Shown here: piece by piece, positions 1,978 through 61,243 of the stretch
How positions within the stretch are numbered: the stretch's first letter is position 1
How the letters are laid out: each line of letters begins with the position of its first letter
Origin: a virus
Strand: one strand, 5' to 3'
Length of the DNA stretch: 64,000 nucleotides
Virus record (IMG/VR): IMGVR_UViG_3300025141_016305
Coordinates: 62,001 to 126,000 of that record
Position numbers and translations under genes: made by a program
Notes under the pieces: generated by a model
What the model saw: only the letters and a program-made list of their open reading frames with translations
The model's database searches: none
What the model was told of the DNA's origin: nothing

Positions 1978-3985
1978 CTTTTTCGTCCCTCGCTTTTAAA
2001 CTTTCAAAAAGATTGTTTATTTCTTTTTCGTTGCGCAGCAACTTCAGCTCTTCTAATTTATAATTAGTATTTTCTTCTGCATATACCCTTGTTCCTCGGG
2101 CTAGACCCGCAAGTTCGTCATATCCAGGTAAAGTTTTTCTGATTGAGCCCACCTCCGGAGAGGCTGCTCTATTCATGTTCTTTTTTCTTGGCCCAGAGCT
2201 TTTTCGACGGTCGCCGGCGGCTTTCAGGCTGCGGGGCTCATACCATCCGTGAGATTTATCTGTGGTTGTTCTCCCCTTTTTATCGGTCACCTTTCCGGGC
2301 GTGTCATCTCTCTTGGCTGGGGGCGCGGCAAGTAAATCACCCTCTTCTGGACCTGTAGGTTCTGCTGGTTCTGTGCCTGTATCGTCTGGGGTTGGCTCTC
2401 CTGCTCTGAGATCTGCTTCTGCACCGACTGTTCCTACGCCGCCGGGAACGCCGGCGTCTCCACCCTCTAGTCCCAGATCATCAACCCCAGCATCTAAGCC
2501 AGCAGTGGCCTCAGCCTGTTCGGCTTCTGCGGCGGTTTCTAGGGCCGCCTCAAACTTGCGATCATAGAACATTTCTCTTCTATTTCTGACGAAATCATCA
2601 TCTGACATGCCAAACAGTGTTTTTGACAGCCATTGCTTTGAAAAGAAACCTTCAGTTGCTGAAGATGCTATATCAAATTTAGATTTCCAATGTTCAAGCT
2701 CTTGCATTTCTGCAATTTTAGAAGGATTATTTAATTGACAAGTAAAAGAAACTAGATCCTCATCTCTATAACCCATGGTGTATAAATGAATAATTCCGAT
2801 CTTTTCTAACTCTGTTATAATCGACCTTTGCAACCTTTGAATAGTTCTTGCAAAGCGAATATCTTTTTGTGCCAAAGTAGTTTTATCTTCTTGAATATTT
2901 TCCCCATCCGATGAAATATAAGACGCGGGGACCTTTAATGCTGAAAATAGTTTGTCTCTTAAGTATTTTACGTCATCAATGTCTCCAGTATATTGTCCAC
3001 CTTGTACAGACTCTATTTTCGTTCCAGTGGTCTGGCCGCGGACTGGAATGAAGTAATCTTCTTCAACGGACAATGGATTGTATCTCAGATCCACTCGGCC
3101 AGTAGAACTATCAACAACTTGGTTTCTCTTCATGGTTGTCATTACTTTCTGCATATATTGTTCTACATCTTGAGGGGCTATATTTCCAACATCAACATAA
3201 AAAGCTCTCCTCTCTGGTGATCGGACTATGCGATAAGCCATCATCGCGTCTTCAAGTAATGTTAGTTGGCGCCAGATGCGACGGGCCGGCTCTAGGACTG
3301 AAGTTCCATATGGACTATATTTGTCTTGGCCAAGGACCCTAAAGTGACCTACTTGCCAATTCTCAAAAGTTAATCCGGCGGAGTTCCACTGGTATTGTAC
3401 ATAATTTGGGTTTGTTTTATCCTCTCCTTCTAACCTCTCTACCTCTTGGGTCGGAAGACCGATAACTGAGGTGATTCCTAATTTTTCATCCAAATCTAAA
3501 TACAAAAAGAAATCACCATATTTACACATCGTTCTACACCAAGCAAAAAGATTGTGATTAATGTTAAGAACATCGTGGTACATAGAGTCTAATATTGCTC
3601 GAATCTCTTCATTTTCGCACACAACTTTAAGCATTGGAGTTAAAGCTGAGTATGTTGTCATTTCATCTGCATAAATATCTAGTGCAGATGCTATTTCTGG
3701 TGTGTATTCCATCTGGTCAAAGTCGACATACCTTTCTGTTCTCTGTTGGCTAGCCATAACATTTGCTTGCAAGTTATCGTAAGGATTATAGGCAGTTTTC
3801 TTAAAATCTCTTCCGGAAGCCGATGTGAATTTGGATGAGAACTTGTCCAAATCTATTCTTCTTAGTCTGTGATTTGTCTGAGTTCTGTAATTTGTTAGAG
3901 GACCCGAGAGTAACCTGGTCAGCCTTCTGAAAAGCAAACTTTGCGGATTTCTTGTGTTTTTCTTATTCTTGCTGTTGTCAGCCAT
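1961..3985 (-). CDS. 20: Portal vertex protein, gp20-like
   Basis: 674 residues. Residues around 225-370 carry the gp20 core: AYRIVRSPERRAFYVDVGN, then the EDYFIPVRG, GTKIESVQGGQ and KLFSALKVP segments, matching T4 portal proteins. The portal forms the dodecameric ring at the head vertex through which gp17 packages DNA, and it nucleates prohead assembly. T4 gp20 is 524 residues; this protein is about 150 longer because of a C-terminal extension (about 480-674) rich in Ala, Gly, Glu, Pro and Asp, whose DNA (about 2150-2560) is strikingly GC-rich for this genome. The last 40 residues return to a charged helical sequence. It starts 9 bases after the terminase stop. The core assignment is firm; the extension has no assigned role. 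Confidence 0.95.
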   Translation of the reverse strand: MADNSKNKKNTRNPQSLLFRRLTRLLSGPLTNYRTQTNHRLRRIDLDKFSSKFTSASGRDFKKTAYNPYDNLQANVMASQQRTERYVDFDQMEYTPEIASALDIYADEMTTYSALTPMLKVVCENEEIRAILDSMYHDVLNINHNLFAWCRTMCKYGDFFLYLDLDEKLGITSVIGLPTQEVERLEGEDKTNPNYVQYQWNSAGLTFENWQVGHFRVLGQDKYSPYGTSVLEPARRIWRQLTLLEDAMMAYRIVRSPERRAFYVDVGNIAPQDVEQYMQKVMTTMKRNQVVDSSTGRVDLRYNPLSVEEDYFIPVRGQTTGTKIESVQGGQYTGDIDDVKYLRDKLFSALKVPASYISSDGENIQEDKTTLAQKDIRFARTIQRLQRSIITELEKIGIIHLYTMGYRDEDLVSFTCQLNNPSKIAEMQELEHWKSKFDIASSATEGFFSKQWLSKTLFGMSDDDFVRNRREMFYDRKFEAALETAAEAEQAEATAGLDAGVDDLGLEGGDAGVPGGVGTVGAEADLRAGEPTPDDTGTEPAEPTGPEEGDLLAAPPAKRDDTPGKVTDKKGRTTTDKSHGWYEPRSLKAAGDRRKSSGPRKKNMNRAASPEVGSIRKTLPGYDELAGLARGTRVYAEENTNYKLEELKLLRNEKEINNLFESLKARDEKDETET

Positions 3986-3993
3986 TATTTATA
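3986..3993 (-). promoter_or_regulatory. TATAAATA octamer abutting the portal start codon
   Basis: The minus strand reads TATAAATA directly followed by the portal ATG. This is identical to the T4 late promoter -10 element. Transcription from it would begin a few bases downstream, inside the portal gene, so it cannot drive full-length portal in the usual way. It may be chance in an A/T-rich initiation region. Confidence 0.2.
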
Positions 3994-3994
3994 C

Positions 3995-5581
3995 CTACCC
4001 TTTAAATAGCCATGGAAAATCTGTTACGGCCGATTGGTGTTTATTCATTGTCTCTTTCATCTTAAGGTTCTTAATACCTATCATACCATTTATTCTGGTG
4101 TCTAATTCGTTTGATGATTTAGTTATTGCACCAATAAAGGCTTTATTATAATCTGACTGAAGCTTGTTTGCGGACAGGGCCGTGTCTCGAACCCAACACC
4201 CGACGGCGCACGACATTATCAGATCGTCATTATAAGATCTCATAGCTTCTGGTCTTCCATTGTTCCAAATAAACGTCTTCATCTCAGATAAAAGTCTGGA
4301 AGAATATATCTTAATTAGATTGTTTCTTATGAATTCCTCCATCTTTGCCACGATTAGAGGCCTTGTTTTCGATGTAGTAGTAAATCCAGCTACTGCGTTT
4401 GACATTTGTTCTGCTTTGTACTCTTCAACAAACTCATGAGTTGATTTAACTGAAAAATATAAATTTGGATATCTCATTTCCTTTAATTTTTCCAAAACTG
4501 CAAAGCCAACCGAATTGTTCTCTACAACCAAAAGCCCATTACCATACTCTTGCCCCAAGTCAAACAACACGCGTGAAAATATATCTGGTGTTACTTTTCC
4601 TTGATATTCTGCTATAATTTCCATGGTTTCTAAATTTAAAACATGCGCAACGGAATAGTCTTTTCCGTCGCCGCGGGCGACATCGGCAGAAATGAGGTAC
4701 GTATTTTGCGGATTTCTTTCTTCCCATATCCACAGATTTCTATCAAACCCAGTTCTATACTTTGGTTCTTTTATCATGTTAAAATATGTTTCTATATTTT
4801 CTGGTCCAAAGACTGTTTCACCAGACATATTAAAATTACATTCTAACTCTTGCGCGATTTCTCTGCGAGACATATTTCTTGTCTCTTTTTCAAACCAAGT
4901 TTGATCCCGGTCGGGATGAACGTCCCAGGGTAACTTAGTATGGTGAAAATCATTCGACATGTTTTCTGATTCTGTATATACTTTATGAAACCAATTCCCA
5001 ACACCGTTTGGTGTAGACAAAGCTATACAGCGACCACCGGTGGAGAGCGTAGGGTAAAGACCCATCCACAAATCATCTAGACCTTCGACGTGGGCGGCCT
5101 CGTCAATCACCAACAAAGATAGAGCTTCAGATCGGCCTGCATCGCCGCTTGTTGAAGATGCCTTAATTTGGGAACCATTTGATAAGATAAAAGAGGTTCT
5201 ATTATCTATTTCTACATTGGAAATTGTTAGCCATTTTGGTAAGTTTTTAATAATAGCTTTAACTTTCTTTACTAAATTAGCTGCCGTATTGAACTTTGTT
5301 GCTATAACTAAAACATTCTTTTCTCGATGAAACATCATAAGCCAAGCAACGTATGCAGCACTTATTGTTGAAATCCCAAGTTGCCTGGCCTTTAATATAA
5401 CATTAAACCTATGGTCTTCAAAATCTTCTAATAAGTCTTTTTGAAAAGGGTACAAATGAAAAGGTATCAAGCCTTTCATCGGGTGAGTAATTTTTGCATA
5501 AGTATTTATAAAATATTCGGGCTTCTTTCCACACCGAACTATTTCTTTCATTACTTCTTGCTTAGTTAATTTTAGTGACAT
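3995..5581 (-). CDS. 17: Terminase large subunit, gp17-like
   Basis: 528 residues. The N-terminal ATPase domain has a deviant Walker A (ARQLGIST, about 65-72), Walker B with catalytic Glu (LLVIDEAAH, about 156-164) and a coupling motif (STPNG, 189-193). The C-terminal RNase H-fold nuclease has ISADVARG with its first acidic residue near 299, a VVEN motif near 358 and NDD near 470. Together these make the packaging motor and headful nuclease that dock on the portal. The usual Walker A lysine before Ser/Thr is replaced by Ile, with Lys and Arg just before the loop, an arrangement seen in other phage terminases. It lies between the portal (downstream) and the gp16-position gene (upstream), as in T4. 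Confidence 0.95.
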   Translation of the reverse strand: MSLKLTKQEVMKEIVRCGKKPEYFINTYAKITHPMKGLIPFHLYPFQKDLLEDFEDHRFNVILKARQLGISTISAAYVAWLMMFHREKNVLVIATKFNTAANLVKKVKAIIKNLPKWLTISNVEIDNRTSFILSNGSQIKASSTSGDAGRSEALSLLVIDEAAHVEGLDDLWMGLYPTLSTGGRCIALSTPNGVGNWFHKVYTESENMSNDFHHTKLPWDVHPDRDQTWFEKETRNMSRREIAQELECNFNMSGETVFGPENIETYFNMIKEPKYRTGFDRNLWIWEERNPQNTYLISADVARGDGKDYSVAHVLNLETMEIIAEYQGKVTPDIFSRVLFDLGQEYGNGLLVVENNSVGFAVLEKLKEMRYPNLYFSVKSTHEFVEEYKAEQMSNAVAGFTTTSKTRPLIVAKMEEFIRNNLIKIYSSRLLSEMKTFIWNNGRPEAMRSYNDDLIMSCAVGCWVRDTALSANKLQSDYNKAFIGAITKSSNELDTRINGMIGIKNLKMKETMNKHQSAVTDFPWLFKG

Positions 5582-5588
5582 TTAACTC

Positions 5589-6089
5589 TCAGCTTTTAAG
5601 GCCGCCGAGTGATAACCACTTGCGAGTTGCTGAGTCTAATTGTTCTTCAGATTCCGGTGTATTTTCTTCTGCTTCTCCGCCGCCAATAACCCAACACTTA
5701 TGGACCTTTACGCTGCAGCGGATTCGGGAAATATATTCAACAAATACATCAACTTCGGATGGGTCCGATAAGGAAAGGGCGCTCTTTTTGATCTTTTTGT
5801 ACTCCTTTTGGATAAAGGATTTTACTTTTTCTATCATAGATTCCATTTCTCCTTCAAAATCGTTGTTATGAACTTCCTTAAGAGGTATTTCAGAGTGATA
5901 TTTGATGTGAAGGCGGTCTCCGGAAACGTGGGCGCCGAAGCCGTCCATAACCCTAGAATCTACTAGTGCGTTCCCTTCTTCCCTTCTTAGGCCTATTTTA
6001 ATAGGTTCTCCCTTTTCATCTAACGCGCCATCGTGGGAATTAGATACCACCTGAGAGATACAGTTAATAATTTCTAAAGTTGTTGCCAT
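5589..6089 (-). CDS. Protein in the small-terminase position, function uncertain
   Basis: 166 residues ending 7 bases before the terminase gene. T4 gp16, the small terminase, is 164 residues and lies at the same place, so synteny suggests a packaging accessory role. However, I see no clear DNA-binding or oligomerisation motif of gp16. The N-terminus is helical, the middle contains a DGFGAHVSGDRLHIKYHSE beta-type segment, and residues 85-105 are Lys-rich. The Gly/Glu-rich stretch near 135-150 looks disordered. A CTATTTATA element with an AGAGG ribosome site lies 17-26 bases upstream, which suggests that its own late transcript starts here. Gene reality is firm; function is unproven. Confidence 0.6.
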   Translation of the reverse strand: MATTLEIINCISQVVSNSHDGALDEKGEPIKIGLRREEGNALVDSRVMDGFGAHVSGDRLHIKYHSEIPLKEVHNNDFEGEMESMIEKVKSFIQKEYKKIKKSALSLSDPSEVDVFVEYISRIRCSVKVHKCWVIGGGEAEENTPESEEQLDSATRKWLSLGGLKS

Positions 6090-6106
6090 TGTTTAAAATC
6101 CTCTAC

Positions 6107-6115
6107 TATAAATAG
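6107..6115 (-). promoter_or_regulatory. Candidate late promoter element CTATTTATA before the gp16-position gene
   Basis: The minus strand reads CTATTTATA, followed by GTAGAGG and the ATG at 6089. The same nonamer is found in two other long gaps, in front of the genes starting at 17056 and 40736. Its spacing suits a -10 element for a gp55-type sigma. The opposite strand reads TATAAATAG, the exact T4 late consensus pointing the other way, so the orientation is not certain. Confidence 0.4.
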
Positions 6116-6124
6116 CTTGCTAGT

Positions 6125-6133
6125 AATAAATAG
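6125..6133 (-). promoter_or_regulatory. Second, tandem CTATTTATT element
   Basis: This sits 18 bases upstream of the first element in the same 44-base gap and differs from it only in the last base. Tandem copies in such a short gap are unlikely by chance but not proof of function. Confidence 0.3.
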
Positions 6134-6502
6134 TTAGTTATTTGGTCTCCAGCCAGTTTTCCATCTTTCTTCTCGGTCTTCCACATGTTGAATGTAACAA
6201 TCAAAACAGCATTCGAATTTATTCATATATAAGTCGTCACTTGCAGAGAAAGAATACGAAGTACAAATAGGACATATTCTTTCAGCCTTATTTTGCTTTC
6301 TCTTCTCTCTGACGACAAAACCCTCTAATTCTGTGGTTTGTTTTTTACTTTTTTCATTCTTATAAAATTCTTTTAAGTCTTCTAGGTATTTCTTTTCTTT
6401 TTCTTCGTCCCAGTGTTTTTTAGGGTTTTGTATTGCATCGTCGCCATACTTTTCTTTTATGACTTTCTCTATTTTTGCAATATCATTTAAATCTTTTTTC
6501 AT
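6134..6502 (-). CDS. Small zinc-ribbon-like protein
   Basis: 122 residues. The first 70 are charged and helical (many Lys and Glu). The C-terminal part holds CPIC at 77-80 and a C98-C99-x2-C102 cluster, a plausible four-cysteine zinc site. No family is recognised. It ends 44 bases before the gp16-position gene and begins one base after the stop of the spanin-like gene, so it is probably co-transcribed with the lysis-like genes. Nucleic-acid or protein binding is a guess from the zinc site. Confidence 0.6.
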   Translation of the reverse strand: MKKDLNDIAKIEKVIKEKYGDDAIQNPKKHWDEEKEKKYLEDLKEFYKNEKSKKQTTELEGFVVREKRKQNKAERICPICTSYSFSASDDLYMNKFECCFDCYIQHVEDREERWKTGWRPNN

Positions 6503-6503
6503 A

Positions 6504-6971
6504 TCAATTCATTGTACTCAAAGCAATGCCGTTAGCTATGGCGGTGCCGACATAGTAAACGGCCAAAGTGGCCACCGCGCCGGCGCCGAACCACAGATAC
6601 CAATAGTCATTTGGCCTCTTAAGTGCGATCTCTTCAAGTCTTTGATTTTCCGTTTTAAGAGCAATAATAGTTTTTGCAGAGACTTCTTTGTGATATTCTA
6701 AATCTGCAGTAAGTGTCCCAATCTGTAAATCAAAATCTGCTTTTTGCTTTTCAAGCTTTTCAGACAATTTAAGTTGGCACCGTTCTTCTTCGGTTTCCTT
6801 ATCCGCAATCAATTTAGCTATTGCTGGAACATTAAAACACCATGCCTTGAAGGGAACTTCGTCACCTTTTGATAGTTCAGCTATTGTTGGCTCTGATGCT
6901 ATACTAGTTGTTGTAAAACTAACCAGTAACAGCAAAACCAAAAAGTTCTTCGAGTTTGTTGTTAATTTCAT
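6504..6971 (-). CDS. Exported coiled-coil protein with C-terminal membrane anchor, spanin-like
   Basis: 155 residues. Residues 1-26 form a signal peptide (basic start, LVLLLLVSF core, probable cleavage after SIA). Residues 55-115 are a charged coiled coil, and 124-146 form a transmembrane helix. Two cysteines (45 and 65) could form disulfides in the periplasm. It overlaps the upstream membrane coiled-coil gene by 53 bases in another frame, an arrangement reminiscent of Rz/Rz1 spanin genes. There is no lipobox, so it is not a classical outer-membrane spanin. A lysis role is inferred from topology and from the holin-like gene next door. Confidence 0.55.
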   Translation of the reverse strand: MKLTTNSKNFLVLLLLVSFTTTSIASEPTIAELSKGDEVPFKAWCFNVPAIAKLIADKETEEERCQLKLSEKLEKQKADFDLQIGTLTADLEYHKEVSAKTIIALKTENQRLEEIALKRPNDYWYLWFGAGAVATLAVYYVGTAIANGIALSTMN

Positions 6972-7305
6972 TGGGGCTACTTTCTGCTTTCTTAATAATC
7001 TCTTTAACTTTTTTCTTTTCTTTTCTTGAAAGCTCTTTTTCTTTTATTGCATATTTCTCTTCTATTTTAACAAGAGTTTCTTGATATTTTAAGGTAAGTT
7101 CTTCTCTTTTTTGTATCTCTACATTTCTTGCATCTTGGAGAGCCTGTATCTGACTTTCATAAGACTTCTTTCTAACCTCCATTGTTTCAATGGCTGCTTG
7201 ATTGTTTTTACGTGCAAAGATAAAAATACCGATTGACCAAATCGCCATGGCAAAAACCTTCCAATGTTCTTTGACAAAGAGCCATGCTAGCTTTATTTTT
7301 ATCAT
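6919..7305 (-). CDS. Inner-membrane coiled-coil protein, i-spanin-like
   Basis: 128 residues from an ATG at 7305, whose ATGA overlaps the stop of the holin-like gene. An ATG at 7329 would add eight residues; the coupled start is preferred. One transmembrane helix lies near residues 17-33 (AMAIWSIGIFIF). The rest is a long Lys/Glu coiled coil, ending in a short Phe-Gly segment. This is the layout of inner-membrane spanins: N-terminal anchor and periplasmic rod. The last 53 bases overlap the start of the exported coiled-coil gene. I see no endolysin next to it, so the lysis assignment remains provisional. Confidence 0.55.
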   Translation of the reverse strand: MIKIKLAWLFVKEHWKVFAMAIWSIGIFIFARKNNQAAIETMEVRKKSYESQIQALQDARNVEIQKREELTLKYQETLVKIEEKYAIKEKELSRKEKKKVKEIIKKAESSPNEINNKLEELFGFAVTG

Positions 7306-7508
7306 CGTTCGGTGGATCCATGCTTCCATTTAACAGCCATATCAACAAGAGCTTGGGTTCCAATATATGCTAATGTGATAGCTGTCCAATTATCGCTCGT
7401 TACGGTACCGTACGCACAGAGTCCGGTTGCTGTAATCCATGCTAAAAACTTGCGAGAAATAAATCTCTCTGTATATTTGTCTGCAAAAGCCTTTACCGCG
7501 GTCATCAT
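7302..7508 (-). CDS. Small holin-like membrane protein
   Basis: 68 residues with two hydrophobic segments (about 20-36 and 41-58). The pattern FISRKFLAW, then SDNWT, then AYIGTQALVD resembles small phage holin-like proteins, which have RKFW near the start and an AYIG-Q-x-x-x-D helix. Holins permeabilise the inner membrane at the end of infection. An AGGAGG ribosome site lies about 6 bases upstream of the ATG. Its stop overlaps the start of the spanin-like gene. The family match is from memory and moderate. Confidence 0.55.
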   Translation of the reverse strand: MMTAVKAFADKYTERFISRKFLAWITATGLCAYGTVTSDNWTAITLAYIGTQALVDMAVKWKHGSTER

Positions 7509-7517
7509 AATTTCCTC

Positions 7518-10500
7518 CTAGATATTTACATGTGCAAATCCAGATTTCTTTTCAATATTAATCTGCATATCTACACAGTCCTTTAAACTATCTAGGTGCG
7601 AGATAAGAATAACTGTCTTAAAATAACCCTTTACCATGTCTAAAATGCGAACAAAGCCCTCCATATTTTCTTCGTCTAACGCGGTACCGGGTTCGTCGAG
7701 AATGAATAAGTCTGATTTAGGCAAGCTGGATACAGTTAAAAAAGCTAGACGGATAGCCATAGAGGCTATTGTCTTTTCTGCTCCAGACCCCATCTCTAAT
7801 GGTCTGGGGTCGTACTCTGGGTGCTTGATGAAAATATCTAACTTGTCGTCGCTATTTGAAATAAAGATTTCAAAATCCACAATATTCGTTAAGATTTTTG
7901 CAATCTCCTGATTTATGAACGGAAGTCTCTCTTTGATAATATCATAAGAAACTCCACTTGGATGACAACAAGTCATCAGCAAGTGATATGCTGCGAAGTC
8001 TTCCTTTAAGGTTTCGTATTCTTCCAATTGCTGTTGCATATGTATCAACTTCTGTTCCAGGGAACCATGCTTTTTGTGGAGGTTCATGATCCGGTTTTCG
8101 CACAGGGCAGATTCCTTTTCCCCTTTTTTAATATCTACATCTAAAGCGCTTTGCTTTCTTAGCAGATCCTTAAGATTCTCAATAGACTCCTTGTTAATTT
8201 CGTATTCTTCACTTTTCTTCTGCAGGTTCTCTAGTTCCACCTGTTCTTTAAACAGCAGACTATCGGCTCGCTCCACAGTCAAGCGGTTGCTGGTTATCGA
8301 TGTCGCAAACTTGTTCCTCTTTTCTACCAAAAGATTGTAGTTCTCAATATGAGATTCCACCTCTTCTGGTGATAAGTCTGAAATCTCTTTCCCTAGACGA
8401 TTCACATTAAGTGATAAGTCTCTCTGTTTTACTTCTGTAATTTGAATAAGGTCGATGGCGGAATGGGCATCTTTAATAAATTTACAAGTGGGGTACTGAG
8501 ACCCGCATGGAACCTCCAAGAGAAGATCTTGCTTCTTTCTGCCGGTGATGATTTCATCGCTACTCTTTCTGATTTCTTGCAAAAAATTTCTAAGCTCGTC
8601 TTTTTTGGAGTCAATAATTTCCTTTTTCTCTTCAAAAGAAGTGATATCAAAACCTTCTAAGAAATCAGAAATCTTCTTAAACACAACCTCTTCTGATTCT
8701 AACGCCTTGAGAGAGTCTGTCTTTTTAGAAGTCAAAGACAAAATAGAATTCTTCTTTACTTCTATTTCTTTCATGGTCATAACAGGATCGATGATTTCGG
8801 CCGGAACTGAGTCTATCTTTTCCTGGATTTGTCCTAACTCTTCTGTTAGAAGCGCAGTGTTGTCTTTTAGAGCCAAACAAAGGGCCCTGTTCTTCTCTAT
8901 TGAAAGCCCACTCTTAGCTATATCTCCTTTGATTCCCTTTATCTCAGTATCAAAATCAATATGATCAATTCTCTTAAGTGCTATCTTTGTTGCAGCAGAC
9001 TCTTCTTTTGCCAGTTTGAACTTCTTATCAAAGAGTTCCAAATCCAAAAACTTCGCCAAAAACTCTTTGCGTTTAGTTGAACCTTCGTTTATGAAAGATA
9101 AGGCCTCAAGCTGACTGGCCATCGAAGTCATTAGAAAATCACTGTGGGTTCCAAAGTATTTTCTTACGTTTTTATCTGTATCTTGGCGGGATGTTCCATT
9201 GAGGCTAGTGTTATTGCCAATCAGGTCTTGCTTATAGAACTCCAGATCAGTACTAGCTTCTTGCGTTTCCTCTCCCTTTAGGCGCTTAACATACTTCTTA
9301 GACGACCTTTCCACTATATATTCTTCATCGTGAACCTTAATTGTTGCCCGAGAGCGGCACTCATCCTTATTTTGATTGATTATGTTTAGGTTTTTTCTGA
9401 TAGATTTAGACGTGGTATTATATAAGGAATATAGCAGACTATCAACAATCGAAGATTTACCTGAATAGTTCTTGCCAAAAATGCCTACTATGCCTTCAAG
9501 ATTTGTAAAATCAATTCTGTTTCCCTCGCCATAGTTAAACAGATTGTCCCATTCGAGAGTTTGAAGCGACCAATGTACATTTCTCATTACGTCTTCACCC
9601 TCTTCAATCTGGGTATTATATTTCTTATTGAGTTCATACACTCGTTTCATTACTTCTTCGGAGGCGTTGAATTCCTCTAGGTAATCTGCAATGAGATCTT
9701 CTTGTGTCTTTATACTTCTCAGGTCCCTCTTTTCAATACCATCGGCAGAAGGGACTGTAACTTGCTTTCCTGCCGCTCTATTCAAGTATGTGACCGACTC
9801 AGGCTTGTACTTATACTTTGCTATGTCTACTGCTTTTCGGACCTTCTCAAGCGAGACATTGTTCTTAGATACAATCCTAAGCCTCGCGCCCAAAGGAGGC
9901 ACCGGTCGCGGCAAGTTACCCTTCTCGGTCAAGGAGATTGTAACGAAAGGCTTAGGATTGTTGAATGTGATCAGTTTATTGGTAAAGTTATTTTTGTCTT
10001 GGATATCCCAGAGCAAATAACCTTTCTCTAATGATTCCCCGAAGTTCTGCTGTACGGTCGACCCAGCATACCAGATTCTACCTTCCTTATCTAGCTGCTG
10101 AGTTTTGTGGATATCCCCCAAGAAGGCAAAGTCAAACTCATCAAAAATTTCAATATTGTGATCTCCGCCTAGGGTCCAGTTCTGATCCGTCTTTGATTTG
10201 TCTATCGCGCCGTGATACAAGGCGATATTAACTGCTTCTGGGTTTGTAGGTTCAATCCAATTCTCTTCATCAAAGACAGAAAGAACATTTAAGCAAAACT
10301 GATTGTTTAATTTTGCTTCTCCGGCGGTTTTGAGCAAAATAAGATTTGGTGAATTAATTGCTTTCACAATCGGTGATAAAGCATCTTGCCTAGAGTCATT
10401 CCTCAAATTGCCATCATGATTGCCTAATATAACATAGGTGGGTGCAATGGCTGCCAAGTTCTCGAAGAAGTCTCGACACATATCTACGAATTCTGGTGAT

Positions 10501-10655
10501 ATCTGTGTCTTCGTATGGGCTATATCTCCGCAGTGGATAATATAATCTACGTTTTCTTCTTTTAGTGATTTATAAAGTTGTTTGAACACTTCTCTATATT
10601 CGAAGTGGTATTTTAAATTACGGATATGGGTATCCGCAATATGAGCAAATCTCAT
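7518..10655 (-). CDS. Fused SbcD-SbcC (gp47-gp46) nuclease/ATPase in one polypeptide
   Basis: 1045 residues. Residues 1-350 are an Mre11/SbcD metallophosphoesterase: ADTH (7-10), HCGDIAH, LGNHD and FLGDIH metal-binding motifs. Residues 357-1045 are an SbcC/Rad50 ATPase: it restarts with MRN at 357, Walker A GKNYSGKS at 394-401, long coiled coils, a Cys pair (C-x6-C, near 716-723) at the hinge position of the zinc hook, a signature GSGAEK motif and Walker B LDEP at 986-989. In T4 these are two proteins, gp47 and gp46, which process ends for recombination-dependent replication. Here they share one frame without interruption. Met357 has a GAGG/GAAG-type site upstream in the DNA, so a separate SbcC part by internal initiation is conceivable. 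A sigma70-type promoter precedes the gene. Confidence 0.93.
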   Translation of the reverse strand: MRFAHIADTHIRNLKYHFEYREVFKQLYKSLKEENVDYIIHCGDIAHTKTQISPEFVDMCRDFFENLAAIAPTYVILGNHDGNLRNDSRQDALSPIVKAINSPNLILLKTAGEAKLNNQFCLNVLSVFDEENWIEPTNPEAVNIALYHGAIDKSKTDQNWTLGGDHNIEIFDEFDFAFLGDIHKTQQLDKEGRIWYAGSTVQQNFGESLEKGYLLWDIQDKNNFTNKLITFNNPKPFVTISLTEKGNLPRPVPPLGARLRIVSKNNVSLEKVRKAVDIAKYKYKPESVTYLNRAAGKQVTVPSADGIEKRDLRSIKTQEDLIADYLEEFNASEEVMKRVYELNKKYNTQIEEGEDVMRNVHWSLQTLEWDNLFNYGEGNRIDFTNLEGIVGIFGKNYSGKSSIVDSLLYSLYNTTSKSIRKNLNIINQNKDECRSRATIKVHDEEYIVERSSKKYVKRLKGEETQEASTDLEFYKQDLIGNNTSLNGTSRQDTDKNVRKYFGTHSDFLMTSMASQLEALSFINEGSTKRKEFLAKFLDLELFDKKFKLAKEESAATKIALKRIDHIDFDTEIKGIKGDIAKSGLSIEKNRALCLALKDNTALLTEELGQIQEKIDSVPAEIIDPVMTMKEIEVKKNSILSLTSKKTDSLKALESEEVVFKKISDFLEGFDITSFEEKKEIIDSKKDELRNFLQEIRKSSDEIITGRKKQDLLLEVPCGSQYPTCKFIKDAHSAIDLIQITEVKQRDLSLNVNRLGKEISDLSPEEVESHIENYNLLVEKRNKFATSITSNRLTVERADSLLFKEQVELENLQKKSEEYEINKESIENLKDLLRKQSALDVDIKKGEKESALCENRIMNLHKKHGSLEQKLIHMQQQLEEYETLKEDFAAYHLLMTCCHPSGVSYDIIKERLPFINQEIAKILTNIVDFEIFISNSDDKLDIFIKHPEYDPRPLEMGSGAEKTIASMAIRLAFLTVSSLPKSDLFILDEPGTALDEENMEGFVRILDMVKGYFKTVILISHLDSLKDCVDMQINIEKKSGFAHVNI

Positions 10656-11334: not shown

Positions 11335-12252
11335 TCAAAAATTAAGTTTGTATTTTAAATAGTCCAAATCTGAAACAAAATCCGCATTTTGTTTCCTCTT
11401 TTCGACCTCTTCCTTTGGCATTTCGCCAATGTCTGCGAAAGGTGTTATCGAAAACGTCTTCACAGATATATTGTATTCTCTCAGTTTTTTGGCAATTCTC
11501 AGCTCTTTATCTTTTGCATCTTCGTCCAAAGAGATATAAACATCTGGCTGTCTGTCACATATTTTTTGAAATAGTTTTGATTTCTCTCTCAGAGTTGAAC
11601 CAAGCAGGGGGATTGCATTTTTGCACTTCATCGCATCAAACACGCCCTCTACTAAAAGTATATCATCATCCCAATCGATATTTAAGTCATTGAAAATAAT
11701 GTCCTTACTAACTTGAGGATTTTTGTATTTGGCCCAATCGTCTGCGTAAGACCTAGCGATAAAAAAGTTTAGATTTCCGAGATGGTCAAAAGATGGAACG
11801 ATTACTCTGTCCTTGTATTCACCATAGTTACAAAACCCAACTTTCCACTTGAGAATATCCAGATCGGTATATCCTCGCGCATACATATAATTTAAAGCCT
11901 TCCTTTTGACAGGGGTCTTTTTTCCTGTTAAAGTCTGAAAATGCTCTGGTAAATCAATAATTTGTGGTGGAGGCTTTATTTCTTCTGCGAAGATCGTGTC
12001 ATATTTGGAAAGATCAACTTCTCCTTCTAGTAGTCTCCAGTCCGCATAATAAGACGGAGCATACCGCCGGATCAGTGGAGATATTTTTGTTCCAGAGTAA
12101 TCGCATATCCAGCACTTAAACACTCCCTTTTCAGGATTAACTGAAAGCTTTAGCTTGTGGTGATTACACTTTGGACAATGAAAAAGGTGCTCTTCTCCGT
12201 TTGACCAGCATCGCCCTAGGGCTTTTTTAAGTAGTTTCAGCTTGTCCGACAA
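11335..12252 (-). CDS. DNA primase, DnaG type (zinc finger plus Toprim)
   Basis: 305 residues. A CHC2-type zinc ribbon is visible at the start (C26-x2-C29 and C47-x2-C50). The Toprim domain follows: LLVEGVFDAMK near 200 with its catalytic Glu, then ISLDEDAKD near 240 with the metal-binding Asp-x-Asp. This is the layout of phage primases such as T4 gp61, which lay RNA primers for lagging-strand synthesis with the replicative helicase. It is about half the size of bacterial DnaG and lacks the helicase-binding C-terminal domain. Its start overlaps the end of the RuvC-like gene by 26 bases, indicating coupled translation. Confidence 0.9.
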   Translation of the reverse strand: MSDKLKLLKKALGRCWSNGEEHLFHCPKCNHHKLKLSVNPEKGVFKCWICDYSGTKISPLIRRYAPSYYADWRLLEGEVDLSKYDTIFAEEIKPPPQIIDLPEHFQTLTGKKTPVKRKALNYMYARGYTDLDILKWKVGFCNYGEYKDRVIVPSFDHLGNLNFFIARSYADDWAKYKNPQVSKDIIFNDLNIDWDDDILLVEGVFDAMKCKNAIPLLGSTLREKSKLFQKICDRQPDVYISLDEDAKDKELRIAKKLREYNISVKTFSITPFADIGEMPKEEVEKRKQNADFVSDLDYLKYKLNF

Positions 12253-12766
12253 GTTTTGACCCCGCTAATCCAATTACAATACTGTCACACATGTCATAAG
12301 TCCCGGGTTTGGGATTTCCATGTTTTGTATATTCTATCGTAATTTGAGGGTAGTTGTCAAGGACAAATTGCAACACTTTTTCTTTGGCGATTTCTCCGCG
12401 ATGAATTTTAACCCCAGCAACCTTTCGGGCCGAAGTTGCTGCTATCATTTCCGGCTTCATTCCGAAAATTTCATAACATTGCCATGATACAATACCATTG
12501 AAGCGAGAAAGTGTCGATAATGTACGAGCAGAGGAAAAACCACTACGAAAAGATTGCAAGGATTGTTCAACGTATATATTTGTTATGTTATGGTTTTTTT
12601 TAATTTTCAACAAATCATCCTTTAAAAGGTCGGCTTTCTCATATAAAGTAGGAAACTTTCGCTTATTTCTAGTATCCCAAATGAAGCTTTCGATTATTTT
12701 ATTATCTTCTATTATAGAAGCTCCCGTAATAGATGTTGATATATCAAGTCCTAGAATTTTTTTCAT
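12227..12766 (-). CDS. RuvC-like Holliday-junction/branched-DNA nuclease
   Basis: 179 residues with an RNase H-fold pattern: ILGLDIST at 4-11 with the first catalytic Asp (8), YVEQ near 67 with a Glu, and DMCDS near 158-162 supplying the final acidic residues. This fits RuvC-type resolvases, including poxvirus A22-like and phage members. In phages such enzymes trim branched DNA before packaging, the role of endonuclease VII in T4. The gene overlaps the J-domain gene by 23 bases upstream and the primase by 26 bases downstream. The assignment rests on motifs and length; the exact subfamily is unsure. Confidence 0.8.
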   Translation of the reverse strand: MKKILGLDISTSITGASIIEDNKIIESFIWDTRNKRKFPTLYEKADLLKDDLLKIKKNHNITNIYVEQSLQSFRSGFSSARTLSTLSRFNGIVSWQCYEIFGMKPEMIAATSARKVAGVKIHRGEIAKEKVLQFVLDNYPQITIEYTKHGNPKPGTYDMCDSIVIGLAGSKLVGQAETT

Positions 12767-26460: not shown

Positions 26461-29400
26461 TTAGCCACTACCTTCAGGCAAGCCCAAGTACCAGAAAGCG
26501 TTACATACTTGCGGGCCATAATAAAGGGTGTATGTCTCCGGCTTTATCGGTTCTTGTAGGTTTGAGTCGGCCGGGAAATCCTCTACTATAAAATTATTGG
26601 GCACCCTTGATAAAATTCCCTTCTTTTCATCTCTTATGTAGTAGGGATTATCAACATCATAAGAATAGACACCCCCATGTAACCTAGGTATGCCTTCATC
26701 TGTTGTTCTGTTTAATAACGACCCTGTGAATCCGGCGGTATAAATAGTTCCTAGGCTGCTCATAAAGTGCCATGTCGAAGAATCGGATGAGCCGCTTGTC
26801 GTCAGTGAAACTACTGGGTCACCCATAACACCTTTAAATTGATACAAATAATCAGTACCTGTAAGGTCAGCAATTTTTTCGGTGGCTGAACCTGAGCAAA
26901 TATGCGTATGGGCGACGTCGGCGAAACAGGCCATTTGGCAGGATTCGGTGAGAATCCATTCAGTTGCCAATATATTAGTGAGGCAATAATCACCAGTCGC
27001 GCCGGGAAAGGGGTTTCCACCTTCCGGAACAAACTGACTCTTTCCTTGGCCTGGGCCGACATCTCTTATTGGTAACATGGGATAATCAACTGCGAGGCCG
27101 GCCTTGATTGAGTTCATTAAAATGCCCGGGCCGAATATTAGTTTCATTGCCTGCTGCTTCGAGGCCCTTATTCTATGATCTAGCAAGTTATATCTTGCAT
27201 GATTTGGAAGGCCACCAGTGATATAACTGTTTGGTGCTGCAGAGTAAGACCCGCTCTTTAAGTAATTATCATGGAATATTTCACCCAATTGCATAATTCG
27301 CTCTGCCGGATAAAAGCCTCGATAGGGTAAAAACCTCTTAACTGCCTGGCACCTAAGTGTTAGTTTTGTCGGAACCATTCCTCCGGCATAAGGCTTATCA
27401 AACTTTTCCTGAACGTCTAAGCGCTCTGTTACTACTCCGAAATATTTCATAAAATCGGAGGTACCATAAGTCTTAAAAAATTGAGATCCAACTTGTATAT
27501 CACCCGAAGAATGTTGATGTATCGCTCCAGTCAGTGATAAAAAGTCATCTTTAATACAACTTATATCTGAAAAAGAGTCCAAATCGAAAAACTTTTCAAC
27601 ATACTCACTAATTCTGAATTCGGGAACAATGGAGTGATCTTGTCCCACTCTGCGCATCTCGTCTCTATACTCTTCATAAGAGTTGAAAAACGGCTTTGGC
27701 TTGTTATCTGCCGCGGACCAGATTGCCTCGCCGGCGAGGTACTCTTCTCCGGCCGTGCCGGCGTCCGCAGCTCGGATGTAAGCAGTTTGAGGTATCTTCC
27801 TGTTATAAACAATAGACGGAGGCGGGGTGCCATAAATTAAATTAAGTCCGCATGGCCAATTTCCAAAATCGTTTTGGAACATCCCTTGGCCGCGGCCACC
27901 TTGGCCGCCGCCTTTGTTAAGCGAACCTGCACTATCAGAGCGCTGATCCATCCGGTTTCTCATCCAAGTCTTTAGAGTGTAGCCTGAAGACGGGCCACGG
28001 AGACCCCAGCTGTGGATCTGGGCGATGCCCGTGTAATTTCCTCCCCAGGTATTTTGTATTTCTACAGGGTCCATCAAAGGTCCATCCAGTGGCCAGGAAC
28101 TCATTGTCATGGCAGTGAGACTAAGTGCTGTGTAATCGAGGTCGCCTAGGGAAATAGAGTCATCATGTATTTGTCTTGCATTGATGTATTGATACGAACC
28201 AAAAAAAGTATGTTGAAAATGATTTTTTTCATTTATTTCCGTATTAAGCATCCGTTCTGGCCAGATTTGGTGGCGGCCGGGGACGGAAATAGATTTTTTG
28301 TAAGTTTTTATTATTGGTAGCACCATTGGACTCATGTCCGCAAAGGTTCCACTAACTGTATATCTGTATTGCCAATAATCCGGCCTTTGAATCGTTGTAT
28401 GGCGGTAGGACGTGTTATCACTCCAACCTCCTATAACGTTATCATTGGTTGGGGTTTTGTGTTCTGGTGCTCTGGTATATGTTCTATCTGCTCTTACAGC
28501 TGTTGGGTACCCATGAAAAACAAAACCTTCTCTTGTTCTTGCATTCTTTGTGAACGTATTTTCTTCTCTTGGATATATCGTTTCGATATAATTAAGCTCT
28601 CTTAACTCTCTATCCTTATTCTGCGCGGTAGATTCTGGGAACCAAGTTTCATAAATAGCATCAAATCGATGGGGCTTGATTTCATCGACATTTAAATCTT
28701 TTATAATCTCTGGATTTGCATAAGTTGTTAGTTCATTCTGAAATGAAACCCTTAAGGATACTGAACCATGCATAACTTCTCTTATTGACTGTATTGAATC
28801 CACATCAAAAATAAAGTTTTCAGTTGCATCCCCCTCTTCAGAGAATCTCTCTTGCAAAAGACCCAACTCCTGAGAGGGATCAGTTGCAACGTTGTAATAA
28901 TATTCGTCAGCGTTCCACATCTGATGTTCGACAAGTTGACTTGTAGCATTGCCGCGAATCATCAAAGTTCCAAGCTCAGCAAAAGCAGAATCAGTTGGGC
29001 GCTTCATTCTATGTTTTGTCAGGGTTAATGGATTAAAGCGATTTGTTGCAAAAATATCTTTATAATTCTCAACCGTTCTTGCACTAGTCTTTGTGGTGAC
29101 CGGCACAGCACCTGTTTCAGAGCCAGTGCCATCCTTATTAGCATTTGGAACATTTATCTGCTCAGCAGGGTGGAATGAAAAGTGATAATCCATCAAGGAT
29201 GAAACGTTAAAGCTTGTCCCCCTACGAACAATTGAGAAAGTGTTATTCTTTCTGTGATGTCTCATCACTGGATGTGAGCCACCCCTTGTTTGTTTCCAAG
29301 AAGGCCAACCATATGGACCTTGACGATTAAGAATGATAGAATTTAAAACTAGGCCGGCGCCATCGCCCGACAGGCCTGCGAGGTCCTTGCCGGCCTGCGC

Positions 29401-32400
29401 GTGGCCAGAGCCTCCCAAAAAGGGGCCCGCGACTATCTCATCGTTTATATAATTGATCCAGCCGATGTGCGGCGATGAGCCCTGGGTGATAGTAAAACTT
29501 TCATGACCGAGAGAATTAGCTGATGAAGAAAGCGGTTCTCTAACTATTGTATTAAGACCAGCAAAATCAACGAACAAATGGCTGCGCCAGGAGGTGGGAG
29601 AAAATACTGATGGTGCATTCAAGCCATAAACCAAACCCAGCTGACCGGGATACTCTACAACGCCAAACTCAGATTGACTTAAAAATTGAATTGATTCTGC
29701 TGAACTAATTGTTTTATTACTTCTTGTAGTATCAGTGTTTAATTTTCTATTTTCAGCATGATGTGGTCCATACGTTGTCACATCTCCACCAATAAATTGA
29801 TGCCTAAAGCCGCCATTTCGCAGTAGAAAATATGACCCAGGATTAAGGTAGCTGGTGTCGGGATATATAACCTGTGAAGTTCTAATCCAACTGTAGCCCA
29901 AATCATAACTTGGTATTTCTCCTTGTACAAAACCGTTATACTTTGAGTACCTATCTAAAAAAGGATTACCAGCAATAGACTTATATGCAGAATGTACTCC
30001 AAAGGTGTCACCAAAAGTCGATGGTTTCGGAATTACTTCGCCGTTGGCATGCCGGGGGCGGTGGTCGATTACTGCATTACCCCGAGATCTTGCATAACCT
30101 CCAGTTGGGAGTAATGTATAAGTCTGAGCGAAAGGCTGGGCAGAATCATAATTTAAATCAGTTCGAACCCTAAGATTTCTGTAGTTCATTGTGCTATATA
30201 CGGAAAGCTCTCCTGATGCTTTATCATACTTGTATGAGTCTGCCCCTATGGCGCTACCAGATGGGTCGAAACTAGCTTCATGGGCAGAGAACCGATTTAC
30301 AATAACATGTTCGGTACGACCTCTATCTGGTAGGGCATAGTCTCTTTCAGGGTGATTTATAAACTGTGTTCTAACTGAAGATCCTGCAAAGAATTTACCT
30401 CCTGAAAAGCCCGTAATGGAATCAGTCCAAGCGCCGGTCCTTGAAAGCACAGTGTTGCCGTCTGGGCCGGCAGATGCTTGTGTTATGGTCAGAGTGCCAG
30501 TATTGACATTCCCCCCGTTTGTATGAACCACTGTCACTGTTGATCCGTGATTTGCATCGATGGCAGTCTTAAGATTATCTATCGATGCCCGGGCGTTGGC
30601 GCCTCTTGTCACTGTAATCTTTGGTGCCGAAGCAGAAACGCCTTCGTCCCGAAATTCATATGTCTTATCTACGCCTGTAGCGCTGATTATATTTACCTGG
30701 TTGCCAGAAGCGGGATTAGCATCGTATACAATCGTACCAACGGCTGCGAGTGGCTGAGCATTTGGCTGAGGTTGTTCTCTAGGTTCTCGTAAGTTTCTGG
30801 AAGTTCCGTACGGCTCTGTTCCAATAAAAGATCCTTCATTATCAATGAAATAATTGTTATTTGAGGCCCGGGCATTAGTTATGACAACTTCATAATCTTT
30901 GTTATAGTTGCCCAACAACAAAGAGCTAGTAGTATGTTTTATGTTTGCAATATTCATAAAACGCATACTTCCTAGATCTCGATGGAACATTGATTTAGGA
31001 GTGGAATTCATACCAGGAGATTTAACGGTTATTGAGCCGGCTGCCTCGACTATGTCATACCCCTCTGGCCGGTTTTGTTCCGGTGTGCCAAAGGGTACCC
31101 TTCTGTGGGGCATGCCTCCGACGTGAGCCCTAGTAAATGGACCCTGAAGGGCAGTTATGGAATCCTCATCATCATGGTTGTTTGTTATTGCTAGCTTTTC
31201 TTTAAAGTCGCTAAAGTCATTTCCTACAGAGGAACTATGCAAAGTAAAAGGTAGAATCAAATCTGCATCAGCGTCGAGATACCCATCTGTGTCGGAAGTA
31301 TCTGTTTTTGCTGTATATATCTTTTTCTTATTTGGGTCTAAAATATCATCGCACTTTTTAAAGTCATATATGTCGTTTGCGCTAATGCTAATTTCTTTCC
31401 CACTATTAATAACCTTATACAGGCCGTCAATTTTATTAGCTTTTCTGTTTGAACCTGGGATTAGAAAATCTTGTCTATCGACAGAGAATTTATACGGCTT
31501 TGTCAAACTTCGAAGCACATAAGTAGAACCCTCTACATCTTTTGTTATAATATTGTTTAATGTCTGGCGGCCTGCGGTGTTTTCTCTTTCTTTTCTTTCT
31601 TTCTGCCATAGGCAATTGTTAGCCTCATTGTCCGCCGAGTGGCCATGTTCCCAATCATATAAAAGCTCGTTAATGCCTAAGAATGGCGTTTCAGGCAAAG
31701 AAGGCTCTTTAAACTCAAGCGTTGGAGCTTTGTGTTGATACTTGTTTCTTTCTAGTGCGTGACTTTCTACAACGTTTTTTAAATCTGCCCTAAGATTGGA
31801 GCTAGCCGGTTGCAACTCGTACAACATTCTCCCTAGTGATGCATCAATCCATTTATAATAGTTAACAAACTGATCTAAATCAACGTCATTTTGAACTCTT
31901 GAAAAGAATTTTTCTTTTACCTTTTCAAGCATCTTGTAGTTTGGTCGATATTTATTAACAGGCTCACCAAGCATATTGTTAAAAGAAACTAAACCTGCTA
32001 CAAAATTGAGCATTTCTTTAGAAATAATTTGATACATGCTCTTCTCAAAAGCAAAATCATATGTTATTGGCCTACTGTCAGTTGTGAATTTATCAATTTC
32101 TTGATCTTTTATCTTAACCCTATCGCTAGTGTATGCATTATCAAGTTCCACATATTCCACACTTTGAAGATAATCTTGTACTATTGCAGTATTTTGATTG
32201 GTAAAGTTCTCAGAAATACCTGGATACTTATACCCTACAACTTCTCCATATTTTTCAACATCTCCCAAACTACCACTGGCAAAATCAACTATTGATAAAA
32301 CCGAAGAGCTGAATGCTGGGTTGTTGTCAAATTGCCAACTAAGTGCTAAAGTGTTAAGGTTTAATCTATTACTTCCAGTATTATGCGCATTTACAAGTTG

Positions 32401-35400
32401 AGGGTTTTCTCTTCCATAATTATTTACATTTAGAGCATGCTCTTTTATTTCATTGTGATTAAGCTTGTCCGTCCAAACATTTAAGAAAATGCCTCTTGTA
32501 TCTGCAGAATTAACAATGGCTCCAGTCAAATGGGTTCTCTCTGCTCCCATGTAGAAAGACTTGTTAAATTTAGACCAATACTCATATTCAGTTTGGTTTA
32601 TCGCAGAAGTTAAGTGAAAACTATTTCTCAACACATCTACATCATATTGCTTTCCTATGAATTCTACTTTGTATCCGTAATCATCTATTTCTCCAAATGG
32701 CACAGAACTATCTTTTGAAGCTATAACTGCAAAATTCCATCGAGAGTTATTATACACTTGTTGGTAATAACTGGAGGTGATTTCATGAAATTGGCCAAGA
32801 GAACTTGTTAATTTAAAGTAAGCTGTGTCGTCTTTGTTTGGATGTTTTATGGCTGACACATTGAAAGATAACTGATTTGAAAGATCTCCTCCTGTGTGTG
32901 TCGAAGGAGTTCCATCAGAGCCACTGTGCATACCAACACCAACCTGAGATGCGCCCCCGCCGACATTGTTGACTACAATGGCCTGATTTCCAGCTGCTCC
33001 ATTATTTTGGTTTTGAATATTGACGACTGTATTATCTAGTGTAGCATCGAAATTGGCCGGCAGGTTGTTTATTATTCTTTGTATTTGCGATGCGATTTCA
33101 GTATTTGTTAAATACCCCGTGTTCGATGGGCCGGCGAGTGAGGAACTTTGAGGGACGCCGCCCGGGGCAAAGATCCAATCTTGACTGTCAAAGCTGGCCG
33201 TCAGGACACGCTGTGTGGCTGCGGTGGCGATTTGAGGGCCGTTGCCGTTCCAATAGTGCTCCGGAGAGCTGTCACCGTCCTCACCACCATTAAGTCTCAA
33301 ACTCCCAGAAGCGAGCTGAGTCCAAGTGTCTTCTCCCGCGTATTGTGCGATGCGTACGCCCAGCGGCTGGCCAGTGCCGGCTCCCAAAGTGTTGTCGTCT
33401 GCTTTAACTTGCATCGTGCCCTGTACAATGCCCGCGTTCATAGGTGAGTAATAAGAAATACTGGCCGCTTCTGTAATGTTGTTCGCTCTCTGGTCTCCTG
33501 CTGCGTCCATGAGTTCAGTATTTTGTAACTTTATGTGCCCTCTTTGTGCAGCGTCCGTTATCGCCATGCCGACATTATAGAACCACTCGGTAATATGGCC
33601 GCCGGCGGCTGCAACTAAACTAAACTGAGAAGCCACAGAGTAGTCGTTATCCGAGTTTCTTCTAACTCTATTTTGGTAGGCAGTTTTTGTTCCTCCGCCA
33701 GAAGCAGTGATGCTTACGATGTTTGTCGAAAAAGAGCCGGTATCAACAAAATTAATCTTTAATATTTTTGTGTTTGCATCGAGGATCTGAATTTGGATTG
33801 GCTCAGACTTTCCAGATGACCAATGAGTCCTCCACATTCCATTGTATGTGCCAGAATCAGTACCTATCTGCAGCGGGTACAAGTAAAATTGAGCATAGCC
33901 GCCTGGAAATTCATGGTCGGAACCGTCGCCGCCAAAGTTGTTTCCTTTTTGAACTCTTGCATATACTGGTATGTTGTTCCAAGAAATATTATCGCCTCGA
34001 AGATAATTTGTTTTTGAATCATCATGTCTTGCTTCAAGCACTATCGTGTTTAAATCGTCATCATCACTAGCGCCGTCGATAATAGTGATCGTCGAACCAG
34101 TTGGAGGCGAAGATGCTATTGATATATAGCCGGATGACGAGGTAGCCGCAACGGCCGGTGTTGTAACTACAGGAGCGGAATCATAAGTTGGGCCGCAGCC
34201 ATAAAGGGAAGAATTAGTTATGGCTGCGGGTACATTAAGTTTTGGAAAAATAAAAGAACCCTCAGCTGTCCAAGGCGTCATCAAATAAGTTGAACCAGAC
34301 ATAAACTTTCTAGTCTCTTCTTCATTAGAGGCTGAACTTGTTTGTATTATATTTGCGTCTTTATTAACCCCTTCGAAAGAGATCGTTTTCTTCTTTACAG
34401 CAGTATAAACTGGTTCGTTTAAAATCTCTCTTTCTTCGTTGTTTGCATATACATTAAGGCGTATAAGATTTTCGTCAATACCAAAGCACCTTATAAGGTT
34501 TCTGTATGAAGCTTCTGTTCCTTTAGATTTAAAAATATGATTTAAATTTCTATAAATATTTTTAAGAATCTTATTTTTAATATCATACGTATTTTGTTCA
34601 AAAAGAATAGAAGGAGATTGGGGGTCTCCTTGTCCATAAAACATCTCTTCGATAGTTTCATATCTAGATAGCGCTGATTCTGTATAGTTCGATCCCTTTG
34701 GAGGATCCACATTAAAGCCGCGGCCCATGAGCTGTAATCTTGCAAGCTTTGAATTATCTTCAAACCCTGCAGAATTAACTGAAAATTCATTTGCGCAACC
34801 AAACAAATATTGATCATCAGAAAATACATAATTTGAACCTGTAACGTTTGTAAATTCTGTTAATTCTGACGATTTAATTCTTGTCAGATTATCGATATAA
34901 GATTTAATGCTATCGAATTCTGAGGCCATGGCCTGTAGGAGAATCCCCATCTGACTCTTTATATTACTCGACCCCTCTCCGTCAGAATCGTACGCCCATT
35001 GTGGGACACTTTTCGCTAATGCTGTATGGTTTTGTGAATCATATCCTTTGCCGATCTTAATATATTCTTGCAGTGTACCCCTCGTTAGAGCCTCATACAT
35101 TACTGGGTCGGCGGATTCGTTATTAACTGCAGCGGAATCAGTTATAGCAGATCCGGCTACTCTAGAGGTGCTATTATAGCCAACAAATAAACCATTGGCT
35201 ATTCTTCCGGAATAGTCCAATATTATATTATCTGTCGAGTCTTGGCCTAAAATTCCTTCATTAAATTTATAATATAGCCCTAGGCCCGGGGCATGAGTGA
35301 TATCATCAACAGTTGCACCATATACCGGTTTGTCATAATAGACGCCTATTTCCCTTGCGTTTCGCTCAGTTTTCCAAAACCTAAAATCATCCACTGATCC

Positions 35401-55517: not shown

Positions 55518-56489
55518 TTACATATTCTCCTTTATCTTTTTGAAATCACTCTCATACATAATTTTGGCTAATTTCTTAAATGTTACTTTTGGCTGCCAAC
55601 CCAATACTCTTTTTGCCTTTGAACTATCGCCCAACAAAAGCGGTACTTCATGTGGTCTAAATAATCTTTCATCTATTTTAACATGCTTATCTACATCTAG
55701 GCCTGCTATAGTAAAAACTTCTTCCAAAAATTCTTTAACAGTATGTGTTTCCCCAGTTGAAATAACATAATCATCAGGGTATTTTTGTTGCAACATAAGC
55801 CACATTGCTTCAACATAGTCGCCGGCGAAACCCCAGTCACGTTTTGCTTCTAGGTTGCCCAAATATAAAGTATCCTGTAGGCCTAACTTGATCCTGGCTG
55901 CAGCAAGTGTTATCTTTCTAGTCACAAATGTTTCCCCTCGTTTAGGAGATTCGTGATTAAACAAGATACCAGAAGAAGCATGCATTCCGTACCCGGTCCT
56001 ATAATTATTCACTAAATTATGAGCAAACAATTTTGCACATGCATATGGAGATGCCGGCTGGAACGCTGTCTTTTCTGATTGTGGCACTTCTGGATTATCT
56101 CCAAACATCTCAGACGATGAGGCTTGATAGAATTTGCAATTCGGCCGGAGTTCTCTTAGTGCATTTAAAATTTTTAATGTGCCCATCGCGATGCCGTCGA
56201 CCGTATTTTCAGGTATATCGAAAGATACTCTAACGTGAGATTGTGCCGCAAGATTGTAGAATTCATCTGGCTTGTATTTATTGATTAATTTCCACACAGA
56301 CCCTGCATCATTTAGATCAAAAAACTCCATATGAAACCTGGGGTGACCGAAGACATGATCTACTCTTCCAGTGTTGAAAGAGGAGCTTCTTCTTTTGAGA
56401 CCTATAACTCTATATTTTTTATTCAATAAAAATTCGGCCAGATAGGCGCCGTCTTGGCCTGTGATTCCTGTGATCAATGCTGTTTTCAT
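55518..56489 (-). CDS. gmd: GDP-mannose 4,6-dehydratase
   Basis: 323 residues, an extended SDR enzyme. [12 protein letters not shown] near the start is the NAD(P)-binding glycine motif; SSSEMFGD and PYACAK supply the Ser/Thr-Tyr-Lys catalytic set; [17 protein letters not shown] is diagnostic for GMD. It converts GDP-mannose into GDP-4-keto-6-deoxymannose, the branch point to GDP-fucose, GDP-rhamnose and GDP-perosamine. In this module the perosamine-synthetase-like DegT enzyme (61244) and the GNAT (62307) make GDP-perosamine or its N-acyl form the likely end product. It is slightly shorter than bacterial GMDs (about 345-370). Last gene of the module. Confidence 0.95.
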
Positions 56490-56491
56490 CT

Positions 56492-57493: not shown

Positions 57494-57494
57494 T

Positions 57495-59255: not shown

Positions 59256-59258
59256 TTT

Positions 59259-59903: not shown

Positions 59904-59905
59904 AA

Positions 59906-60568: not shown

Positions 60569-60571
60569 TTT

Positions 60572-61228: not shown

Positions 61229-61243
61229 TTATACTCTCCAATT

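Follow-up and report, generated by a model that had tools for sequence, protein, structure and literature searches.

Does a gene that joins in a single frame the two partners of the Mre11-Rad50 (SbcD-SbcC) nuclease encode a genuine one-chain enzyme, and is such a fusion a novelty? The question is raised by a gene located within what we call the window: a stretch of 64,000 nucleotides (positions 62,001 to 126,000) of the IMG/VR record IMGVR_UViG_3300025141_016305. The record comprises 175,011 bases and codes for portal, terminase, baseplate, tail sheath and major head protein: its source is a large marine contractile-tailed phage.

One chain from nuclease to ATPase

The gene (7518-10655 of the window, minus strand, as are all the features located below) is a single uninterrupted open reading frame of 1045 codons that begins with ATG and contains no internal stop. 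This bears out the fusion that a sequence-only reading had proposed, with minus as the coding strand. The protein opens with an Mre11/SbcD phosphoesterase, followed by a helix-loop-helix, a linker of about seven residues and a full SbcC/Rad50 ATPase. Profile searches recognize both halves as SbcD-like and SbcC-like, supporting homology to T4 gp47 and gp46 joined in frame. Pfam finds Metallophos at residues 1-184 (10104-10655; E 1.3e-14), a calcineurin-like domain also outlined by conservation, and SMC_N at residues 364-461 (E 9.8e-15). PHROG_100 (SbcD-like) matches residues 1-357 (2.8e-31) and PHROG_77 (SbcC-like) residues 299-1043 (6e-53). The latter match begins at position 247 of its profile, and the PHROG_100 profile has 989 positions for a protein of about 350 residues, which suggests that both families already include fused members.

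The nuclease motifs (ADTH 7-10, CGD 42-44, GNHD 78-81, GDIH 180-183) stand exactly where they had first been read, as do Walker A (GKNYSGKS, 394-401; 9453-9476) and Walker B (FILDEP, 984-989; 7689-7706). The ATPase motifs (Walker A, Q-loop, signature, Walker B and H-loop) are all present and conserved. The ABC signature reads SGAE (957-960; 7776-7787) instead of SGGE/Q, and SGAE or SGME throughout the group to which the protein belongs.

An AlphaFold2 model built from 35 sequences (mean pLDDT 80.7) has a pTM of 0.47, so that its local folds are usable while the relative placement of the domains is not reliable. Along the chain it displays the nuclease, a strand-rich capping part, the helix-loop-helix, a break of about seven residues, the N-terminal lobe, coiled-coil arms and the C-terminal lobe, and this is the order of Mre11 and Rad50. 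The helices at 315-329 and 333-353 (9597-9713) occupy the position of the Rad50-binding domain of Mre11, within the part of the protein where the PHROG_77 match has begun. Alignment and model then place the linker DVMRNVH at residues 354-360 (9576-9596). The N-terminal ATPase lobe spans residues 361-540 (9036-9575). A predicted antiparallel coiled coil with two arms of about 175 residues (~540-897; 7965-9038) precedes the C-terminal lobe (900-1045; 7521-7958), which phmmer matches to Rad50 structures such as 3qkt. Comparison of the model with PDB folds retrieves Mre11, Rad50 and SbcCD, together with other SMC proteins. In BFVD full-length giant-virus proteins (Tupanvirus, Harvfovirus, Yasminevirus, Catovirus) rank first, and phage fusions come lower.

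Genome context and probable role

The fusion gene lies between primase/RuvC genes and packaging genes, in an order that is conserved. Upstream are a DnaG-like primase (11335-12252; PHROG_47, E 1e-35) and a RuvC-like Holliday junction resolvase (12227-12766; PHROG_159, E 5e-11); directly downstream is a 68-residue open reading frame (7302-7508). In the marine clade (the best 80 of at least 593 relatives), this small frame accompanies the fusion at 80 of 80 loci, the primase at 64, the terminase at 65 and the portal at 53, counts that must be read knowing that many of these loci are too short to display all neighbours. The primase is also found at 20 of the 21 loci of the Mel-JY01 group. Elsewhere the record encodes a UvsX-like recombinase, SSB, a DnaB-like helicase, a DNA polymerase, an exonuclease and ribonucleotide reductase, and a search of its 175,011 bases found no second metallophosphoesterase gene.

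Other parts of the window deserve a word. On the minus strand, 26461-36534 encodes a 3357-residue protein with a concanavalin-like lectin domain (Pfam Laminin_G_3), and 40802-51622 a 3606-residue protein without any Pfam match; both giants are probably tail or adhesin proteins. Further on (55518-62323, minus strand), a nucleotide-sugar epimerase and two aminotransferase-like genes belong to a run of probable sugar-metabolism genes.

Sequence motifs and the recombination genes of the genome together make it very probable that the gene specifies a single-chain Mre11-Rad50 (SbcD-SbcC) nuclease, of the type of Mimivirus R555, devoted to end resection of the gp46/gp47 kind in recombination-dependent replication, a mode of replication that we infer for this phage from its gene content. 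Two chains would most likely pair via their nuclease domains, their ATP-bound heads and the tip of the coiled coil, so that a single gene product would form the usual M2R2 complex. Binding and hydrolysis of ATP would govern whether DNA ends and hairpins can reach the nuclease sites. The resected ends would supply the UvsX-like recombinase of the phage, in recombination-dependent replication and repair, as gp46/gp47 provide them in T4. It may also help degrade host DNA. T4 indeed has the same two domains, in the same gene order and in a similar replication context, but as two proteins, with CxxC (CPTC) at the tip of gp46, SEGE as the signature and GHxH in gp47. Escherichia coli SbcCD likewise shares domains, gene order, ATPase and nuclease folds, yet its two proteins come from overlapping genes, SbcC alone has 1048 residues, and it displays SGGE and a GHxH metal site where the fusion has SGAE and GDIH.

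Might the enzyme instead serve mainly in attack or counter-defence, degrading the host chromosome or cleaving DNA ends that are aberrant or made by defence systems, rather than in phage replication? The annotation of T4 gp46/47 as needed for host DNA degradation as well as recombination would agree with this, and fold searches also meet SMC-type defence proteins (Lamassu, JetABC), probably only via the shared ABC fold. We nevertheless consider this unlikely, as the conserved place of the gene, between primase/RuvC and packaging functions, and the full recombination set of the same genome argue for replication. As for the benefit of joining the two halves in such a resection nuclease, it is most simply to secure their co-expression, ratio and joint inheritance. 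The fixed 1:1 ratio put forward in the sequence-only reading adds little, because the Mre11/Rad50 complex is already 2:2. That reading also supposed that fusion may alter how the nuclease opens on DNA ends.

The junction between the two halves

The ratio would no longer be fixed if the gene had two products, the full fusion and a free SbcC translated from an internal start at Met356. An ATG is indeed found around codon 356 of the window gene, immediately before the SbcC domain, and GAGG precedes it by about 10 nucleotides. In relatives, however, the position of this methionine holds Leu, Ser, Phe, Tyr, His, Gly, Asn or Lys, and across the clade no signal marks a start at this position, so that a conserved two-product scheme is unsupported and we rejected it; a free SbcC thus appears very improbable. 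Scans for promoters and terminators near the fusion gene gave results at chance level.

Is the fusion itself an accident of the data? A scan of IMG/VR proteins gave at least 593 relatives, and we fetched the best 80. Among these, 77 span the whole gene and three are interrupted by contig ends; no split SbcD/SbcC pair of the clade was present among the loci fetched. In the linker R358 and N359, and just past it W362, are nearly invariant in 79 aligned proteins, as are the residues of the metal site, Walker A and B, signature and H-loop. That a lost stop or a frameshift created the fusion during sequencing or assembly is therefore rejected, its probability being next to nil, for all 77 full-length relatives, on independent contigs and with 51-75% identity, keep both halves in one frame, their synteny is kept, and the junction is short, conserved and free of leftover intergenic sequence.

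Such accidents may exist elsewhere. The genome of Listeria phage LMTA-57 (L086) is annotated with a recombination exonuclease of 1009 residues (3908-6937), whereas phage A511 has split genes: one base is missing in a run of A before the sbcD stop, and the ribosome-binding site and ATG of sbcC are intact behind it, so that this fusion may be a sequencing error. A few other loci are irregular. In one relative (L115, 3304-6545) the frame breaks within the nuclease domain rather than at the junction of the two halves. When genome contigs were searched, a few metagenome-assembled 'bacterial' contigs were found to carry the gene; they are likely to be viral or mis-binned. In a WOR-3 metagenome-assembled genome (CP070664.1; L092, L093), two parts resembling the window protein lie far apart on the chromosome, one of them adjoining a masked stretch, probably a result of mis-assembly or mis-binning.

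Likeness to R555 and variation at the coiled-coil tip

The fusion is genuine, yet it is not new. Contrary to the rarity implied by the sequence-only reading, Yoshida, Claverie and Ogata described Mre11/Rad50 fusions in 2011, in Mimivirus (R555), five bacteria (where some are plasmid-borne), six eukaryotes and Bacillus phage 0305phi8-36 (PMC3175470), and we now find the arrangement on many IMG/VR contigs and in cultured phages. The window gene is thus a further member of a family already described. These authors argued that the abundant R555-like genes of aquatic metagenomes are viral, and probably from phages, reporting phage-type primases on GOS scaffolds that carry them, while verifying the fusion in only a few environmental sequences (PMC3175470). 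A survey of jumbo phages holds SbcC and SbcD to be practically universal in them, and the passages available to us make no mention of a Mre11/Rad50 fusion (PMC7824862).

The likeness to R555, judged here from its published description, covers several features. Mre11 precedes Rad50 in both proteins, a helix-loop-helix and a short linker are retained in both, neither virus has a separate SbcCD pair, and the window gene neighbours a phage primase as R555-like aquatic genes do. In R555-type fusions the capping and helix-loop-helix region is kept and the linker has an estimated nine to twelve residues (PMC3175470); in our model the linker would be slightly shorter, at about seven. The protein is also smaller than R555 (1045 against 1351 residues) and, unlike R555, comes from a contractile-tailed phage. 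In R555 a His stands at the third Asp position of the pattern DXH...GDXXD...GNHD, and the residue matching His206 of the Pfu enzyme is an Asp (PMC3175470). Both substitutions are found in the window protein, as GDIAH (43-47, that is GDxxH) and GDIH (180-183), where G43, D44, H47, G180, D181 and H183 are invariant in the 79 aligned proteins.

The claim that the Mre11 part is complete must accordingly be qualified: the phosphoesterase motifs are all there, but D181 replaces the canonical metal-ligand histidine of GHxH. D8, H10, D44, N79, H80, H148, D181 and H183 are invariant in relatives, and among the seven Mre11 metal ligands (D, H, D, N, H, H, H) six are kept (D8, H10, D44, N79, H148, H183). 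GHxH is the canonical form in Mre11, SbcD and gp47; at the position of Pfu His206, Asp is found in 26 of the 28 fused proteins sampled and His in all eight split reference proteins. This contrast may simply follow the tree. Judging from the sequence, the metal preference or activity of the enzyme could differ from the canonical one.

Among cultured phages unbroken fused frames range from 921 to 1326 residues. We find them in Rhizobium phage RHph_TM30 (959 residues), Vibrio phages Va2 (1082) and 1.031.O (1054), Acinetobacter phage Ab1-TPeters (935), Cobetia phage Carin-5 (995), E. coli phage IME392 (921), Tenacibaculum phages PTm1 (1318) and pT24 (1310), Sphingomonas phage PAU (1301), Chryseobacterium phage MA9V-1 (1326) and Microcystis phage Mel-JY01. 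Their annotations – metallo-phosphoesterase, coil containing protein, SbcC-like, SbcD-like, AAA domain protein or hypothetical – are so mixed that the fusion passes unremarked. In a tree built from the conserved cores, 22 fused proteins, including that of the window, make up one clade (support 100/98), and a second group of six is placed elsewhere. The fused state requires two changes on this tree, a single change sufficing in 22% of bootstrap trees, with long branches limiting what the tree can tell; one or two origins of the phage fusions are possible. The single-chain proteins of Mel-JY01, PAU (gp288), PTm1/pT24 and MA9V-1 belong to the clade of the window protein, but often have longer coils (1300 residues) and other tips, and Mel-JY01 is distant from it (31% identity).

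Further arrangements exist. In Yersinia phage YerA41 (L148), an 827-residue frame (205-2688) combines the nuclease with the first part of the ATPase, the C-terminal lobe following as a separate overlapping frame (2685-3242). Either the fusion is divided here at another point, or a frameshift has intervened. In a 484-kb uncultured phage (LR756508.1; L085, ~4001-8160) an insert of about 1 kb, possibly an intron, breaks up the fused gene; it holds a frame with zinc-finger-like Cys motifs, a putative homing endonuclease.

The CxxC zinc hook is absent from the coiled-coil tip of the window protein, and alignment and model place there a C-x6-C (CGSQYPTC, 717-724; 8484-8507), a form that most of the clade shares (62 of the 79 aligned proteins). 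Close relatives (L018, L020-L025, L027, L030) do have CxxC, so that the window tip counts only against a canonical hook. Between L012 and L018, identity is about 90% or higher in the nuclease and in most of the head regions and drops to 27% at the tip, as if tips had been exchanged. Forms with C-x6-C, C-x7-C and CxxC alternate among the close relatives L012, L018, L020-L025, L027, L030, L032, L033, L049 and L078, whose heads are nearly identical. A narrow literature search found no published description of tip exchange, and its occurrence between close relatives may be a new observation. We tentatively suggest, while giving the idea a rather low probability, that the tip is an exchangeable dimerization module in which a C-x6-C hook (PCGxxxxC[K/R]FI[K/R]DA) replaces or alternates with CxxC, perhaps preventing enzymes of co-infecting phages, or of phage and host, from mixing.

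Two types of hook on nearly identical heads constitute a natural pair to probe the role of the tip, and single-chain versions are handy for structural study of the opening of Mre11-Rad50. Finally, whole genes, in long contigs and in cultured phages, support the inference made in 2011 that the R555-like fusions of aquatic environments are phage genes.
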